From: a virus
Virus record (IMG/VR): IMGVR_UViG_3300022833_000052
Coordinates: 1-21,550 of that record
DNA length: 21,550 bases
Reading direction: 5' to 3' (one strand)
Below the pieces are notes generated by a model. The model was not told where the DNA came from. It saw only the letters and a program-made list of their open reading frames with translations, and did no database searches. The position numbers and the translations under genes are program-made. Of this stretch, positions 13,025 to 21,550 are shown in pieces. Numbering within the stretch: position 1 is the stretch's first letter; each line of letters starts with the position of its first letter.

Positions 13025-13929
13025 AATTCTTCCGCCTCTATTGTGGCCTTAGATGTGCCGACACCTTGCGCCGTTGGATTTGCAGACGACAATGTGCCGT
13101 AAATTGAAAATTCTGGATATTGAGCGTCGGCAACAAAGACCGCGCCAATGCCGTCAATGTCATCAACCATGCGCCAGAATGAGTTGGCTTCATAATTTAA
13201 CAGCGTGACGTTGTATGAAACAATTGACGACGTGGTGCGCTGCAAAAGCGATGTCAGCGCCCCGTCTGTCTTTTTGAATGACCGGCTTTTTAGCGTCTTG
13301 CCTGTTCCAACGCCAACAACACCAAACTGCGAAACAATGCCCGCCGCGATTGTGGCAACCTTTGCAACCTCGCCTGTGTTGGTGATTGTTATATCAATTG
13401 AGGCATTCTGCGGAATGTTTAACGCAAAGTTGATGTGTTTGCGTTCAAACGATTTCGGCACAAACAACCACTTCCAAAACGACCCGCCATAAAGCGCCTC
13501 GTCTTTCATGTCATAGCTTACGTTTGCCGCATCGCCTGTTGTGGTAACAGTGGCGACAATTGTGATGTTGCTTGCCTGCACGCCAAAGAACGCGATGCCA
13601 CCGATCCGCGACAATGTTTCAAGCGTGTAGGTAATTGTGTCCGCATTGCTGGTAACGGTTTCAACAACGCGATATTTATCAATTCCAACCTGTCGATCAA
13701 ACGCCGCGTAACGGTTGGCGGGTCCAGCGTCGAACCAATCTGTTGACGTCGCGCTTGGTTCTTCCGATGTTGAAGCCGCGCTAACCTCAAAAATACGTTC
13801 CCCGACACGTTTTTGCGTGCCAAGCGTATAAGTGCCAGCCGTCCACGCAGTTTCAAGCGCCACATTTGACGCCGTGATGTTGGCGTCCGCAATCAAAAGA
13901 GGCACAACAATTTGCAGTGGTGTTGTCAT
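13021..13929 (-). CDS. Tail-tip (distal tail-like) structural protein
   Basis: This 302-residue protein is rich in Thr, Val, Ser and Ala and appears almost all beta. It lies directly after the tape measure gene, where siphophages encode distal tail or hub proteins, and before the fibre gene, overlapping both by 4 bases. Recognisable features are the opening PLQIVVPLLI, a SFWKWLFVPKSFERKHI segment about half way, and repeated beta strands with Gly turns. I cannot assign it to a Dit or Tal family; a minor tail protein or carbohydrate-binding part of the tip is equally possible. Confidence 0.6.
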   Translation of the reverse strand: MTTPLQIVVPLLIADANITASNVALETAWTAGTYTLGTQKRVGERIFEVSAASTSEEPSATSTDWFDAGPANRYAAFDRQVGIDKYRVVETVTSNADTITYTLETLSRIGGIAFFGVQASNITIVATVTTTGDAANVSYDMKDEALYGGSFWKWLFVPKSFERKHINFALNIPQNASIDITITNTGEVAKVATIAAGIVSQFGVVGVGTGKTLKSRSFKKTDGALTSLLQRTTSSIVSYNVTLLNYEANSFWRMVDDIDGIGAVFVADAQYPEFSIYGTLSSANPTAQGVGTSKATIEAEEL

Positions 13930-16900
13930 GTTGCGGCATCCAATGTTAGGGCGTTGGTGTAGTCGGTGTTTTCTGCCGTCTGCGACGATGAATTGGCGGT
14001 AATCTCTGATGTTGATTGTAGCACATCTATACGCGCATTCAACGACTTTAATTCTGCAAGCATTTCTGCCTGCGACTTTTCCGGGCTGTAAGCGATATTA
14101 TTAGCAGCCCGTGACAATCCCCGCCGAAGGTCAACGCCAGTTGCAAAGGCGTTTTCGCTGAATGAAGCGGTTAAGGCGTTTACCGCCGCCGCCGCATCCT
14201 CCGCTACAAAAATCTGCGCAAGCAACGCTTTATTGTGTTCGTTTGTGGCGTCCATTTCACGGCCTCGCATAATGGCCGTCAACTCTTGCGTTTTGCCCTG
14301 CGCTTGCAACAGCCGTTCGGTCAAGGCCACGCGATTTTTCGCTACCGCAAAAAGTTGGTTCACGCTGTCGATATGCGGCACAAGATTTGCAAGGCTTTCG
14401 CCCATGCGTGCAAACTCTTTTGAAATTGCCGCAGACTTTGCCGCCTCGTCCAGCCCTTTTAATGACAAGGAAAATCTGTGCGTAAACCCGTCAAATATAG
14501 AACTGGAAACGCCAAGCGACTCTGCCGCGCCCACTACGCTTTCGCGCACAAGGAACGCCGCTTGATCCATCGGACCCGCGCCTAGTGTCTTGGTAATGGT
14601 TGACCGCTTTTTAGACAGGCCAAAGAAACGCGACTTTTCAATCTCTTTGAACGACTGAAATGCAGCGTTTTCCATTGAGATAACGCCTTTGATGCCTTCG
14701 TCGATGGTTTTTGTCTTTGACTTGAAAAATGAAACAACCGCAAAGACCGCAGCCAATGGCAAGATAGCCGCGCCAGCCGCAGCCGCCAATCCAGCCGCTC
14801 CAGACGATGCACCCGCAAACGCTGTGGACAAAGCCCCTGCGCCGCCAGACAGGCCGCCAGACATCAACCCGCTGCCTACGCTGCCCAGACCACCCAGAAA
14901 GCCTGTGCCAGCAACCGCAGCACTTCCAGCCGTTGCCGCTGTTCCAAAGCCACCAACCAAGCCGGACATTACTCCGCCGCCAGCCGCAGCCGCGCCGCCA
15001 GCCGCAGCACCCGCGCTGCCCATGCCAAGGCTAATCATAATCTTGTTTTTAACCGCCAGAGCAATCATTTGCGAAAGCATATTTTTAAACGTGTCAACGA
15101 TAGACAGTGCAAAGCCCTTGAAGTCTTTCAGCCCGCCGCTCACAAAGTCGCCAAACGCACCAGCCATGCTGTCGATCCCACTGACTAGAATTTGCGCCTT
15201 CGCTTTGCCTAGATCCTCGGTTGTCATAGCGGCTTCTTTCATTGCCGCATTAAACGCTTCGGTTTCTGTTTTTAATTTCTCTATTTTAGGCACGGTCTTG
15301 CCCGCAGACTTTCCAGTAGAAGTAAGTGAGTTATCAAGCAAGTCACTTGCTATCTTTGCTGCGCTTACCTCTTCGGCTGTCTCCGCGATTTTTGTTGTAA
15401 ACTCCTCAAACGCTGTTGAAGTTGCGGTTGTCGATGCAAACAATTGCCTTGCGGTTGCCGATGCCGCCTGCGCTGTCGCTGTGTATTCTAGAGACATCTT
15501 GCGCAAGCCGTCGGAAACCTTGCGCCGCAATGGTTCTTGCAGGTCAAGCCCCAGCGCACGTTCTAAACTGTTCAACGGTCCAGTGATAAAGCTATCAACA
15601 AAGTCAAAACCGCTGTCCAGAACTGACGCAAAGGCTTGCAGGAATGTCGCTGAAAACCCAGCCGCGACCGATTGAGATACAGCAAGCAAAGCAGCTAAAA
15701 ACGTCCCGATGTCAGTCACAACAGCGCGTGACAAAACTGCCACGGCCTTGAACGCCTCGCCAAAGCCGCCCGTGCCTTTGACTAACTCCAAAAATTTGCC
15801 AATTAGCAATCCGGCAACGACGACAACCGCGCCAATGCCAGTGGCAAGCAATGCGCCCTTTAATGTAATTAAACCAACAACAAACGTGGCCGCGGCAACT
15901 GTCGCGCCTATAATTGCAGGCGTAAAGCCAATAACAAGCGCACCTGTGGCCGCGATAACAATCCCAGAAACGGCGTCGATGTTTTCGCCTACAAACGAAA
16001 ACACGCCCGCAAGGCCGGACAAGGCATTTATCCCAATCTCTGCCATTCCAAATAATGCTGCGCCAATGCCCTGTATGGCTGCAACAAATCGCGGGTCGGT
16101 TATTGACCCAATCAACCTGTCAATTGATGCCCGCAGCGTTTCTGTTGCGGGGCCAGACAATTCAAACAGATCGCCAAACGAGTTTCCAAGCGCAGCCAAT
16201 GCGCCGCCCAGCGTGTCGCGCGCCGCCGCAGCCGACCCGCCAAATTGCTTTTCCAGTTCGCCCAGAATAATGCCCTGCGCGCCTGCGAGGTCGTTTGTCG
16301 CAACCATTGCTTTGACAACGTCTTTTTGCGCTTCGGTGAATTGGATGCCCGAACGCGATAGGGCAGTCATACCCAAAACCGGATCGTTCAATGCCTTGCC
16401 GACTTGCAGCGCCGCCGCCTTCAGGTCCGTACCCATCGCGGTCGCAAGATCCATTGTGGCGACTGTGGCCCTGTCAAAGGTTCCGCCTTGAATTTGTGTG
16501 AAGGTCAGCAAGACGCCCTGCATTGCGTTAGTTGCTTCATCGCCAAACTTTGTAACGCCCTGCAACGCTGCTGCGTGCGCGTTTAGCTGGCCAATCGTCC
16601 GGCCAGCCGCGCTGCCCGTTGACAAGATAGCCGCCGCAAGCTGTGCCTGTGCTGCATCGGCTTCAACAGTGGCATCCACAAACTTGTTAAGGCCCGCGCC
16701 CGCAGCGACAACGGCCACAAGCGCCCCAACGGCAGCCGTGGCGGCAATGGCAAACCTTCGCATACCAGCGGCAGCAACGCCGCCAGATGTCGCCCCAAGC
16801 CGCCCCATACCTGCCGCCGCGCCGTCTGTGGCCCGTTCAGTCTTGCGCCCGGCGCGGGTTGTGTCGTCCAGCGCGCGTTCACCCTTTTTCAAGCCGCGCG

Positions 16901-16937
16901 TATCAACGCCGAGAACAAGGTTTGCAAAATCAGCCAT
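13926..16937 (-). CDS. Tape measure protein
   Basis: This 1003-residue protein sets tail length and is the largest gene here. Its N terminus (ANLVLGVDTRGLKKGERALDDTTR) and the following helical part fit phage tape measure proteins. Hydrophobic stretches lie at about 60-84 and 322-380, a Gly/Ala-rich low-complexity part at about 640-760, and a coiled C terminus near the end. At the usual 1.5 angstrom per residue it predicts a tail of about 150 nm. AAGGAT precedes the ATG. It follows the two chaperone frames, as in lambda. Long open frames on the opposite strand are a by-product of its Ala-rich codons. Confidence 0.9.
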   Translation of the reverse strand: MADFANLVLGVDTRGLKKGERALDDTTRAGRKTERATDGAAAGMGRLGATSGGVAAAGMRRFAIAATAAVGALVAVVAAGAGLNKFVDATVEADAAQAQLAAAILSTGSAAGRTIGQLNAHAAALQGVTKFGDEATNAMQGVLLTFTQIQGGTFDRATVATMDLATAMGTDLKAAALQVGKALNDPVLGMTALSRSGIQFTEAQKDVVKAMVATNDLAGAQGIILGELEKQFGGSAAAARDTLGGALAALGNSFGDLFELSGPATETLRASIDRLIGSITDPRFVAAIQGIGAALFGMAEIGINALSGLAGVFSFVGENIDAVSGIVIAATGALVIGFTPAIIGATVAAATFVVGLITLKGALLATGIGAVVVVAGLLIGKFLELVKGTGGFGEAFKAVAVLSRAVVTDIGTFLAALLAVSQSVAAGFSATFLQAFASVLDSGFDFVDSFITGPLNSLERALGLDLQEPLRRKVSDGLRKMSLEYTATAQAASATARQLFASTTATSTAFEEFTTKIAETAEEVSAAKIASDLLDNSLTSTGKSAGKTVPKIEKLKTETEAFNAAMKEAAMTTEDLGKAKAQILVSGIDSMAGAFGDFVSGGLKDFKGFALSIVDTFKNMLSQMIALAVKNKIMISLGMGSAGAAAGGAAAAGGGVMSGLVGGFGTAATAGSAAVAGTGFLGGLGSVGSGLMSGGLSGGAGALSTAFAGASSGAAGLAAAAGAAILPLAAVFAVVSFFKSKTKTIDEGIKGVISMENAAFQSFKEIEKSRFFGLSKKRSTITKTLGAGPMDQAAFLVRESVVGAAESLGVSSSIFDGFTHRFSLSLKGLDEAAKSAAISKEFARMGESLANLVPHIDSVNQLFAVAKNRVALTERLLQAQGKTQELTAIMRGREMDATNEHNKALLAQIFVAEDAAAAVNALTASFSENAFATGVDLRRGLSRAANNIAYSPEKSQAEMLAELKSLNARIDVLQSTSEITANSSSQTAENTDYTNALTLDAAT

Positions 16938-16984: not shown

Positions 16985-17373
16985 TTATTTGGTTTTGTTG
17001 CGTTGGTCTGGCGGTATAGAAAAAGGGCTTGTGCCTTCATTCATGCCAGTGACAAAAGCGTCTGACATTTTCTTGATTAGGCTGGCTTCCCAAGGCTCAA
17101 TCGTATCCATCGTCAGGGACGCATAGGCCGCGATGTCAACCCAATCCAGCGACTGAAAGCCGCCCATCGGTCCAGACTTTATCGGCCCAGCCTCGATCAG
17201 GATATTTAGCAAGTATTCCCCCGCGTCCAATTCTACAAAAGGCGCGGGGGTGTTGTTTGCGGTGTGACGCATCAAACGGCTTTCTTTCGGCCTGTCTGTT
17301 TTGTCGTTCTTTAACTCAATAATGGCGTTCAACCATCCGGCTTGGTGGGCGGCAAGTATTAGTTGCCCTTGCC
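16985..17373 (-). CDS. Tail assembly chaperone extension (GT-like), made by -1 frameshift from the upstream ORF
   Basis: This frame has no proper start: its first possible codon is a TTG at 17332 with no ribosome-binding site, but it is open without a stop back to the slippery site at 17374-17380. Slipping -1 there adds 129 residues and gives a fusion of about 294 residues, like lambda gpG-T. The tail-end part (AGEYLLNILIEAGPIKSGPMGGFQSLDWVDIAAY ... WEASLIKKMSDAFVTGM) resembles the second chaperone of many siphophages. The fusion recruits tail tube subunits around the tape measure. Only frameshifting explains this frame well; independent translation from TTG is possible but weak. Confidence 0.78.
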
Positions 17374-17868
17374 GTTTCCCAAGCGGTTCGCCTGCTTAGA
17401 TGCAAAGTCGCTGCACTGCTTGGCAAACGGGTTGTTGGACATTTCAAACACAGGTTCGCCGTCTTTATTCAAAACAGGTTCACCGTCTGCATCCTCTTTG
17501 ACGCCCATATGCACAAAAGTCAGGTTTAAGAACCACATCGCATCGTCAGCGGTTGCGGGCTTGCCGTCTTTGTCCACGTTTTCAAAACCAACAATGAACG
17601 GCGCAGCCGCTTCGCAAAGCTGGTCATGGACATCTTCCATTACGCGGGCTTCGTCATCGCTGCCCTTGGCCTTTGCAGCCTTAGACATCATAGCGGCCTT
17701 TTGTGCTGCCCGCATTTTGGCTTGCATAGATGCCGACGCAGTACCGCGCAAGATAACCCGGCAAGGCTTGTCGCCATCCATTAGCGCCTCGCCTGTCCAC
17801 TCATCAACGATCTGCATTGGCGATCCGGTTTCAGCTTTTGCGCGGCTGTCAAACTTAGAAAAATCCAT
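17359..17868 (-). CDS. Tail assembly chaperone (G-like)
   Basis: This 169-residue protein comes between the tail tube and tape measure genes, the standard place for tail chaperones. It starts MDFSKFDSRAKAETGSPMQIVDEWTGEAL, has a helical Ala/Lys-rich middle (about 45-70) and an acidic part with a short internal repeat (DGEPVLNKDGEPVF). It ends in KQANRLGNGKGN. Most ribosomes would stop at the TAA; a minority would slip at the GGGAAAC and make the longer fusion. AAGGA precedes the ATG. The role is inferred from position, length, and the lambda-like frameshift. Confidence 0.82.
   Translation of the reverse strand: MDFSKFDSRAKAETGSPMQIVDEWTGEALMDGDKPCRVILRGTASASMQAKMRAAQKAAMMSKAAKAKGSDDEARVMEDVHDQLCEAAAPFIVGFENVDKDGKPATADDAMWFLNLTFVHMGVKEDADGEPVLNKDGEPVFEMSNNPFAKQCSDFASKQANRLGNGKGN
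17374..17380 (-). promoter_or_regulatory. Programmed -1 ribosomal frameshift site, GGGAAAC
   Basis: The minus-strand heptamer G GGA AAC is in the correct phase (third base of a Leu TTG, then GGA and AAC) five codons before the TAA of the chaperone gene. It follows the X XXY YYZ rule and differs by one base from the lambda G/GT site GGGAAAG. Right after it, GGCAAG (17373-17368) can pair with CTTGCC (17356-17351), or GGGCAA can pair with a later TTGCC-CCC; either may stimulate slipping. Confidence 0.8.
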
Positions 17869-17946: not shown

Positions 17947-18438
17947 TTAGGAAGGCTCAACGTCGTCCACTGTGGCCGCGTTTTGCTTAAAGTTGATTGA
18001 AGCACCTTCAAAAGAACTGTCGTCTTTTGGGTTTTCTTCATATGTGTGAAGGTAGCCATGGGCGTACTGCACAACGTCACCCGTGACAGGTGCAGGGCCG
18101 TCGCCGCTGTCCGTGCCAGAACCGCGCACAATCTTGAGCGAATAAACACCCGACTGCGCATTAGCCGCAAGGATAGCAGTAGCAATGCCTGTGTCAGTGC
18201 CGTCGCCATGAAAGGTCAGGGTGGTATCTTTGCCAGTCGCCGCGCCTTTAACGCCAGACGTAAAGCCTGTGCCAAGGTCTGACACATCAATGTTGTTGTG
18301 CGTCACGCCGAAGACGGGCAGGGATTGCGTGCCTTTAAGCTGCACAAAGGTTAGGGCTTCAAAGCCTGCTTTGTTGTTGGTGGCTGGTGAACCTGCTACG
18401 CCGTATAGCGTCAGGCCAATGTTGTTGTTGGTAGTCAT
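17947..18438 (-). CDS. Major tail tube protein
   Basis: This 163-residue beta-rich protein has the usual tail tube plan: GLTLYGVAGSPATNN at the start, a strand with KGTQSLPVFGVTHNNIDVSDLGTGFTS, a Gly/Asp-rich middle and a closing strand-helix (YAHGYLHTYEENPKDDSSFEGASINFKQ). Rings of six such subunits stack to form the tail tube. It lies before the chaperone pair and tape measure and after the tail terminator. AAAGGA in the upstream gap gives a good ribosome-binding site for the ATG. As one of the most abundant virion proteins it should be strongly translated. Confidence 0.85.
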   Translation of the reverse strand: MTTNNNIGLTLYGVAGSPATNNKAGFEALTFVQLKGTQSLPVFGVTHNNIDVSDLGTGFTSGVKGAATGKDTTLTFHGDGTDTGIATAILAANAQSGVYSLKIVRGSGTDSGDGPAPVTGDVVQYAHGYLHTYEENPKDDSSFEGASINFKQNAATVDDVEPS

Positions 18439-18480: not shown

Positions 18481-18654
18481 TTATTTATTGACGCGAAACC
18501 AGCCTATTTTCAGCCATGCGCCAATATCTTTTTCAAGGGGTGTGGCGAACGCACCGGCCCTGTTTGTGAGGTTTGCTTTGACCGGCTTTGCGGCAACGCC
18601 TGTGGGGCTTGCCAGTGGCGTATCAATGCGGGTGAAGGTGTTTTGCTTTTTCAT
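18481..18654 (-). CDS. Small basic protein in the tail gene cluster, function unknown
   Basis: This 57-residue protein begins MKKQNTFTRIDTPLASPTG and is rich in Lys, Ala and Pro. It lies between the tail terminator and tail tube genes, overlapping the former as ATGA. The ATG at 18654 is taken rather than one at 18693, which would lie inside the terminator gene. No family is recognised. A short GC-rich stem (GCCC/GGGC) lies in the gap that follows, but it is too weak to list separately. Confidence 0.6.
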   Translation of the reverse strand: MKKQNTFTRIDTPLASPTGVAAKPVKANLTNRAGAFATPLEKDIGAWLKIGWFRVNK

Positions 18655-19058
18655 GTCATACTTTCGTAGCTGATATAAATCGGGGTTTCCCACCGCACGC
18701 CTTCTTCGCGGCCTTGACGCACGCTGTGGCCTGTTATCGTGACCCGCGTGTCGTTTGCAGTGACGCGCAACCCGCGCTTGAAATATGCGACGATCTCGCC
18801 CGCCTTGCGCTTTGTGGCCACTTCGTAAACGTCAAGAGGCGAAACCAGCGTGATGACCAGAAACCCTTGGCGCATGTAAACTTGATCCGACAGCCCGGCC
18901 GGGACGTTATCATTAGGCAATAAAAACAGCGTGACGTGTTCGTCAGCCGGTTGATCTCCGCCTTTTTGCGACCACAACGCGGGGTAGCCCAGCGCGGTTG
19001 CCATAACGTCCGCTTGCGCGTTTAGGGCTTGCAAGATGTCGCTTTCTACATTGCTCAT
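18651..19058 (-). CDS. Tail terminator protein (DUF4128-like)
   Basis: This 135-residue protein has the layout of tail terminators: an N-terminal helix (VESDILQALNAQADVMA), a strand pair with HVTLFLLPND, RQGFLVITLVSPLDVYEV, a helix with AGEIVAYFKRGLRV and a final strand that ends PIYISYES. In siphophages this ring caps the finished tail tube and joins it to the head. The ATG overlaps the previous stop as ATGA. Position after the HK97 gp10-like protein and before the tail tube gene supports the call. Confidence 0.75.
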   Translation of the reverse strand: MSNVESDILQALNAQADVMATALGYPALWSQKGGDQPADEHVTLFLLPNDNVPAGLSDQVYMRQGFLVITLVSPLDVYEVATKRKAGEIVAYFKRGLRVTANDTRVTITGHSVRQGREEGVRWETPIYISYESMT

Positions 19059-20426: not shown

Positions 20427-21550
20427 TTAGCCCAGCAATGTTGCGACGAAATTCGGCTTCCAAACCTTCGCGGCATAGAAAGTCGTGATGTCAAACATCG
20501 ACTTGCCATAGCCCTTATAGACGCCGATGTCGTAAACAAGACCGGAGAACGGATCTTGTACGGTCAGGCGGTCAACAGCCGCATCGCCGCCAAGTGGCTG
20601 CGCAGGTGGACGAACAACCAACTCGCAAGCCGCGCGGTGGAACGCGACGTTGGCTGTGTGGTTGTTCAGGATTGTCACAGCGTTGTTGTCAGGGATTGCA
20701 ACACGCAAGCCCGGCGCGGCGATTGTGAACGTGCCGGATGTACCAACAACGCCAGCTTCAACAACGTACTTATTCGCTGTGTCTGCTGCGAATGTCACAA
20801 CGTCGCCAGCTTTTACGCCTGTTGCGCCTGCGGTTGCACCGTCAAACACAATAGCGGTTGCACCTTCCGCAAGTGCGCCGTTTACGGTCACGCTTGTTGC
20901 AGTGCCTTTGACGTGCGATGCGATGCCGTTGCTTTCCTTCAACATCAAGCCTTGCAAGTTAAGCAATTCGCCGCGACGCAACAGTTCCTCGCCGCCAGCT
21001 TCATTGACACGCTGCAATTGTGCAAGGTTGCGCAGCTTTGTACCGGCTGCGGTGTTCATCGCAATTGTGGCTTGCCCGTCAAGTGGCATCCCGTTGTCAA
21101 CCAAGATTTGACGAATTTCTGCAACTTCATCAAAGTTGGAACCGAATGGGGTTGTGCCAGCCGTACCGATTGCGCGTGACGCGCCAAGAGCAAGCGTGGA
21201 AGCCGTGTGGCTTTCAATTGCGTTGGTGATTTTGCGCATGGCTTGTGCAATTTGGTCGCCGTAGACGGTTTCGTATCCAGCGCCGTTGTTCAGGTGCTTG
21301 ATGTCTTCGCCGGTGTAGGGGATCTGAATGTTGGCAACCTTGTCGATGGTCATTTCCTTGTTGTCAACGGTCTGATCGTTACCTTCGGGGATGGTCATCG
21401 CAGGCGCATAGCTGTCGTTCAGAGTTGGCGTGCGGGTGTAGGCAGCGCGAACCGTGTCACCAAACGCAGCACCTTCGGAACCGGCGTTGATTGTAACGGA
21501 TGGAATGACGCCAACCAATTCACGGCCAACAATGTCGGCTGCGCGGTAGA
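20427..21550 (-). CDS. Major capsid protein, P22 coat-like (5' end outside window)
   Basis: The gene is open to the right edge, so the N terminus is missing; at least 374 residues are visible. The segment at the edge, YRAADIVGRELVGVIPSV, continues in frame before the first internal start at 21518, so that start is not the real one. ADIVGRE, a helix with NAIESHTASTLALGASRA, TAAGTKLRNLAQLQ and a beta-rich inserted domain (about 215-290; SVTVNGALAEGATAIVFDGA ... GDVVTFAADTANKYVV) fit the P22 gp5 coat family with its I-domain. It forms the shell and heads the visible late operon. P22-type coats also occur in siphophages. Confidence 0.85.
   Translation of the reverse strand, partial: YRAADIVGRELVGVIPSVTINAGSEGAAFGDTVRAAYTRTPTLNDSYAPAMTIPEGNDQTVDNKEMTIDKVANIQIPYTGEDIKHLNNGAGYETVYGDQIAQAMRKITNAIESHTASTLALGASRAIGTAGTTPFGSNFDEVAEIRQILVDNGMPLDGQATIAMNTAAGTKLRNLAQLQRVNEAGGEELLRRGELLNLQGLMLKESNGIASHVKGTATSVTVNGALAEGATAIVFDGATAGATGVKAGDVVTFAADTANKYVVEAGVVGTSGTFTIAAPGLRVAIPDNNAVTILNNHTANVAFHRAACELVVRPPAQPLGGDAAVDRLTVQDPFSGLVYDIGVYKGYGKSMFDITTFYAAKVWKPNFVATLLG

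Follow-up and report, generated by a model that had tools for sequence, protein, structure and literature searches.

A probable programmed -1 frameshift of the lambda G/GT kind in the tail chaperone genes of an uncultivated tailed phage

Frameshifting within the tail assembly chaperone genes is a textbook mechanism for the tailed phages. The slippery heptamer of the lambda G/GT pair is GGGAAAG, and in chaperone families of this type a downstream stimulatory RNA structure is optional. Levin (1993) is said to be the reference for the lambda frameshift, and Xu and colleagues reportedly surveyed frameshifting across the tailed phages in 2004. According to the available part of one paper, the lambda G/GT pair is likewise a tail chaperone pair with a programmed -1 frameshift, and its two products are made at a ratio of 30:1 (PMC5009743). 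Sites of the form G_GGA_AAC have been predicted in the same gene pair of phage KL1 (PMC3483164), Caulobacter phage Colossus (PMC3556154) and the haloarchaeal virus HCTV-1 (PMC5009743), going by the accessible portions of these reports. These are different phages from the one considered here, and on those portions the likeness lies in the heptamer, the gene pair and the direction of the shift. A frameshift predictor, PRFect, has been trained on such genes, as stated in the available part of its description (PMC10274946). Both the mechanism and the use of G_GGA_AAC in this gene pair are thus already known, and the locus described below is a further well-supported example. Our literature search, to which most subscription papers were closed, found no paper on frameshifting in this particular chaperone family.

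The window, by which we mean the whole stretch of DNA analysed, is one virus record of 21,550 bases (IMGVR_UViG_3300022833_000052). Its tail genes lie on the minus strand in the order tail terminator, major tail protein, ORF1, second frame and tape measure gene. The features to which the text refers are as follows.

18651-19058, minus strand: tail terminator gene (PF13554)
17947-18438, minus strand: major tail protein gene, upstream of the chaperone pair (phrog_158, E 6.6e-9)
17359-17868, minus strand: ORF1, zero-frame tail assembly chaperone (gpG-like), 169 aa, with an ATG start and AAGGA upstream (phrog_313, E 2.6e-6)
17359-17395, minus strand: stretch in which both frames are open (frame reading)
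17374-17380, minus strand: putative slippery heptamer G_GGA_AAC, in X_XXY_YYZ phase in ORF1, with GGA and AAC unchanged in 21/21 clusters of the GGGAAAC class
17373-17368 with 17356-17351, minus strand: stem GGCAAG/CTTGCC, without a spacer, present in the window and not conserved
17366-17362 with 17353-17349, minus strand: hairpin core common to relatives, 7 nt after the heptamer, in 13/21 clusters
17330-17332, minus strand: TTG, first common start codon of the second ORF, a start codon in 2/21 clusters and not conserved
16985-17377, minus strand: -1-frame extension (gpT-like), 130 aa from its AAA codon (PF23812 match, open frame)
13926-16937, minus strand: tape measure gene, 1003 aa, directly downstream of the pair (phrog_27166, E 6.1e-34; PF06791, E 5.7e-5, below the PF06791 cut-off)

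The chaperone pair is flanked by the major tail protein and tape measure genes, as expected for a pair of the lambda G/GT type. ORF1 of the window is assigned as 'Tail assembly chaperone' by phrog_313, and at an E value of 0.01 this profile matched one of the six ORF1 family members scanned, namely the window's own protein. The extension matched PF23812 (Phage_TAC_18) with an E value of 1.4e-4 and 22.4 bits, which is under the curated cut-off of 27, and 6 of the 11 extension family members matched that profile at an E value of 0.01. AlphaFold models of both parts were poor, with a mean pLDDT of 58.4 for the extension and 48.5 for ORF1. Elsewhere in the window, at 20427-21518, a major capsid protein of the P22 coat family is encoded (PF11651, E 1.2e-17; phrog_283, E 4.8e-70).

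At the putative site the ORF1 frame reads TTG GGA AAC GGC AAG GGC AAC TAA, so that the stop is the fifth codon after AAC, with four sense codons between. The -1 frame is open from 17395 to its stop at 16985, and the last -1-frame stop upstream is a TAA at 17398. Since both frames are open only between 17359 and 17395, a shift must fall within this short overlap, where GGGAAAC is the only in-phase X_XXY_YYZ motif; a -1 shift yields a fusion of 294 aa. A preliminary description of this DNA had placed the heptamer at 17374-17380 in this phase, had described the second frame as open back to it, and had estimated a fusion of about 294 residues, and on all three points our computation agrees. The window heptamer ends in C and so puts AAC (Asn) in the A site, whereas that of lambda ends in G. 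GGGAAAC itself occurs at chance frequency, with three copies observed in the window against a mean expectation of 2.98, and in-phase X_XXY_YYZ motifs were found at 6 of 2871 codon positions in the window genes (nine reading frames, the chaperone pair included). Because the heptamer alone is no more frequent than chance, the case for its use rests on the relatives of the pair.

A nucleotide search of named phages with the 884-base chaperone pair gave no match, and protein searches were therefore needed to reach them. With the single proteins as queries, ORF1 recovered 13 viral loci and the extension 18, while searches with alignments returned 22 and 62, respectively, many of them on the same contigs. 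Further relatives consisted of one genome contig (L117) and eight phage records, five of which were analysed (L118-L122). From these we assembled 80 junctions: the window, 61 of the 62 extension-alignment loci, 12 of the 22 ORF1-alignment loci, L117 and L118-L122. One rearranged locus (L084) was left out, as were 10 ORF1-alignment loci on contigs already counted. An in-phase X_XXY_YYZ heptamer was present inside the overlap at 80/80 junctions, including those of named phages at 28-36% identity, many of the 80 being near copies and the junction being extrapolated where a match began after residue 1. As a control, such a motif was found in 10 of 320 windows of 33 nt placed further upstream in the same phase. 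Overlap length varies, with a few long cases (from -165 in L045, L046 and L048; from -51 to 91 in L118), so that a chance heptamer is likelier there than in the 33-nt control; in L045, L046 and L048 the only heptamer found is still GGGAAAC at the usual place. The comparison of the heptamer across related phages that the preliminary description had proposed thus finds an in-phase slippery site kept throughout.

The sites fall into several types. GGGAAAC stands alone at 50 junctions and TTTTTTG alone at 8, and a further 8 combine TTTTTTG, TTTGGGA and GGGAAAC. The remaining types are GGGTTTT with TTTTTTG (5 junctions), AAATTTT (3), TTTTTTG with TTTGGGC (2), TTTTTTC (2), TTTTTTG with TTTGGGG (1) and TTTGGGA with GGGAAAG (1). 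With the position of GGGAAAC as reference, the TTTTTTG and TTTTTTC sites begin 6 bases and the AAATTTT sites 9 bases upstream of it. On a tree built from 51 distinct extension proteins, the five classes of site call for 5 changes of type, where 4 would be the minimum, and several long branches leave the deep placements in this tree unsure. In the L086 group (L086-L093, junction near 1490-1510) three in-phase heptamers, TTTTTTG, TTTGGGA and GGGAAAC, overlap. This tandem site, TTTTTTGGGAAAC, holds T_TTT_TTG, T_TTG_GGA and G_GGA_AAC together, and it is possibly an intermediate between the T-run and GGGAAAC classes.

Two loci call for separate mention. The relative L117, whose site is T_TTT_TTG, was found on a contig assigned to a Blastopirellula MAG and may be either a prophage or a misbinned phage contig. 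In L084, positions 1000-1800, read by eye, appear to hold a further chaperone extension with a tape measure start, after which come residues 71-130 of the extension of the present family and then a second tape measure start, an arrangement that could reflect either recombination or misassembly.

Among the named phages, Paracoccus phage vB_PkoS_Pkon1 carries a homologous pair, pkon1_p48/p49 (L118), with 37% identity to ORF1 and 36% to the extension. Its site is an in-phase GGGAAAG with an overlapping TTTGGGA, in contrast to GGGAAAC in the window. The Pkon1 record enters the pair as two separate hypothetical proteins, and the terms 'frameshift', 'slippery' and 'chaperone' were absent from the main text of the Pkon1 paper (PMC6536676). 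The pair is annotated as separate genes in the records of CGphi29, Vibrio phage 1.151.O and two Acinetobacter phages as well. The heptamers in these records are GGGAAAG in Pkon1, AAATTTT in CGphi29 (L119), TTTTTTC in Vibrio phage 1.151.O (L120) and AAATTTT in both Acinetobacter phages (L121 and L122).

GGGAAAC is found at 51 of 72 loci; one of these (L067) was too short, and the remainder gave 39 distinct rows in 21 clusters at 90% identity. Within this class neither heptamer codon shows a synonymous change, GGA and AAC each being present in 21/21 clusters, while GGA makes up only 25 of the 270 Gly codons in the window genes. Neighboring codons vary: an Asn three codons before GGA is written AAC in 14 clusters and AAT in 7, and the Ala codon preceding that Asn is GCG in 10, GCT in 5, GCA in 3 and GCC in 1, with Ser in two. 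The rows were picked for having GGGAAAC, so that the constancy holds within that class, and the unselected test is therefore the 80/80 junctions. The codon immediately before GGA (17382-17380 in the window) was TTG in 18 clusters and ATG in 3, and never CTG; the window genes as a whole use CTG 51 times and TTG 63 times. This fixed UUG or AUG may be a relic of a T-run or a determinant in the E site.

The -1 frame was compared across the same clusters. Its codon 2, the first after the slip, encodes Arg in 21/21 clusters by four different codons (CGG 11, CGC 8, CGA 1, CGT 1), and the overlapping zero-frame residue is G, D, E, A or V among the 39 rows. Beyond the ORF1 stop and upstream of the TTG at 17332, Ala10, Gln12 and Gly14 of the -1 frame are each kept in 21/21 clusters. 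In -1 codons 8-14, which run from the ORF1 stop to the TTG, the third positions vary most, with a mean pairwise difference of 0.54 versus 0.23 and 0.17 at the other two. By these measures, constraint on the protein of the -1 frame sets in at the very first codon that follows the slip.

Could the second ORF nevertheless be an independent gene, starting at the TTG at 17332 or further inside, perhaps by coupling or reinitiation? Ribosomes are known to reinitiate near a stop, and the in-frame TTG lies 27 bases past the end of the ORF1 stop at 17359. In the window an AAGGA-type site is lacking ahead of this TTG, which has just a GGA at a distance of three bases, whereas AAGGA precedes the ATG of both ORF1 and the tape measure gene, and the TTG column is a start codon in only 2/21 clusters. 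The preliminary description had called this start unsupported, which is what we find; a conserved in-frame start for the second ORF, which it had named together with a ribosome-binding site as evidence that would count against a frameshift, is absent among the relatives. An ATA codon overlaps the ORF1 stop (TAATA) and has AAGGG six bases upstream, but its column is Val, Lys, Glu or Thr in 6/21 clusters. Start codons are more frequent at -1-frame columns 35 and 36 (9/21 and 6/21 clusters; TTG 17275 and ATG 17272 in the window), but a start there would lose a conserved part of the protein that includes Arg2, Ala10, Gln12 and Gly14. Independent initiation is thus unlikely, and we grant it only a small chance, because the constraint lies upstream of the TTG, the TTG is not conserved and AAGGA is lacking. 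The tryptic -1-frame peptide QGQLILAAHQAGWLNAIIELK begins upstream of the TTG at 17332, and internal initiation there cannot yield it.

Transcriptional slippage in place of ribosomal frameshifting is an even less probable source of the fusion. In distant relatives six or seven T stand in a row close to this position, and RNA polymerase could in principle slip on them, but at the site of the window no base is repeated more than three times in succession, and what is invariant is a codon-phased XXXYYYZ motif. That no fusion is made, the frame break being a sequencing or assembly error in what is a single virus record or the extension a decayed gene, has a negligible probability, since the same break is found in relatives on many contigs from independent records and in named phages such as Pkon1 and CGphi29 with other heptamers, and the extension is conserved to near its C-terminus.

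The sequence after the heptamer was analysed for structures that might stimulate a ribosomal -1 shift. The preliminary description had proposed the stem pairing 17373-17368 with 17356-17351. It does exist and is the minimum-energy fold of the window stretch, but it leaves no spacer, 71.6% of its cells pair across 17 rows, and its energy is not significant in the window (z -0.63; 44 of 200 shuffles as good). The relatives instead share a five-pair core with the ORF1 stop in its loop in 13/21 clusters (L042, L044, L050, L051, L052, L055, L059, L060, L061, L062, L066, L074 and L104). In the window two of the five pairs are broken as A.C mismatches. Nothing significant replaces the core, the downstream fold of the window alone giving p values of 0.57 and 0.30 against synonymous recodings. 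Across the 21 clusters the mean local fold was -8.0 kcal/mol versus -4.1 for synonymously recoded sequences, and a mean as low was reached by 0 of 1000 such sets, a figure that is not a clean probability because the stretch was chosen after an earlier fold scan and the rows are related. That scan, over the 40 bases after the heptamer, gave p < 0.05 in 3 of 22 rows.

Covariation was assessed in 17 rows (16 of the 21 clusters and L064, without L086, L106, L107, L108 and L116). In the conserved stem 94.1% of cells pair, no pair is changed on both sides and 500 of 500 shuffles did no worse. The stem without a spacer has one pair changed on both sides, and 266 of 500 shuffles were as high; a third stem, set off by a spacer of 6 nt, has 80.0% of its cells paired and no pair changed on both sides. 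Covariation thus supports none of the three. A stimulatory hairpin is likely in the family and unproven in the phage of the window. A Shine-Dalgarno-like sequence upstream, AAGCAGG, was rejected as a stimulator because it varies among relatives, the codon there being CAG in 13 clusters, CAA in 7 and CGT in 1.

We consider with high confidence that the two ORFs form one programmed-frameshift gene of the lambda G/GT kind. This was the main claim of the preliminary description, and it is supported by the phase of the heptamer, the overlap, the 80/80 junctions, the invariance of the site within its class, the protein constraint in the -1 frame, the lack of a conserved start and the gene order. Most ribosomes would stop at 17359 and release the 169-aa chaperone. 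In a minority, a backward slip of one base would replace the P-site codon GGA and the A-site codon AAC by GGG AAA, and reading would continue to 16985; the product would be the 294-aa fusion, whose C-terminal part would lack a separate start. On the lambda pattern, the short form would coat the tape measure protein, and the long form, which would be rarer, would recruit the major tail protein. We infer that both products are made, with the short form in the majority, and that they have roles in tail assembly.

In the tandem slippage model the tRNA on GGA moves to GGG and that on AAC to AAA, and the junction residue comes from the zero-frame A-site tRNA. Because that tRNA (AAC, Asn) would supply the residue, the junction peptide is probably mostly NRLGN-RQGQ, in place of the NRLGK-RQGQ given in the preliminary description, and some product with K is possible. 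In E. coli, AAC as the second codon is less slippery than AAG when A_AAA_AAC is compared with A_AAA_AAG (PMC5009743, in the available part), which counts against a frameshift at this site. Also to be set against it are the lack of significance of the hairpin in the window, the absence of stem covariation, the PF23812 score under its cut-off and the want of an evident Shine-Dalgarno-like stimulator.

To judge from its sequence and that of its relatives, one gene pair of this uncultivated tailed phage very probably yields two tail-building helpers, one short and one long, and the tail module of the phage should likely be annotated with one frameshifted gene instead of two. The environmental phage family to which this phage belongs lets a known recoding device be followed across the replacement of its site. 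The one point of wider interest is this replacement within a single family, with the tandem state in the L086 group. It is conceivable, though we hold the balance to be somewhat against it, that the slippery site was replaced several times in one homologous family by way of overlapping in-phase intermediates while the frameshift was kept. If this is true, the family could illustrate how one essential recoding site gives way to another while its function is kept.
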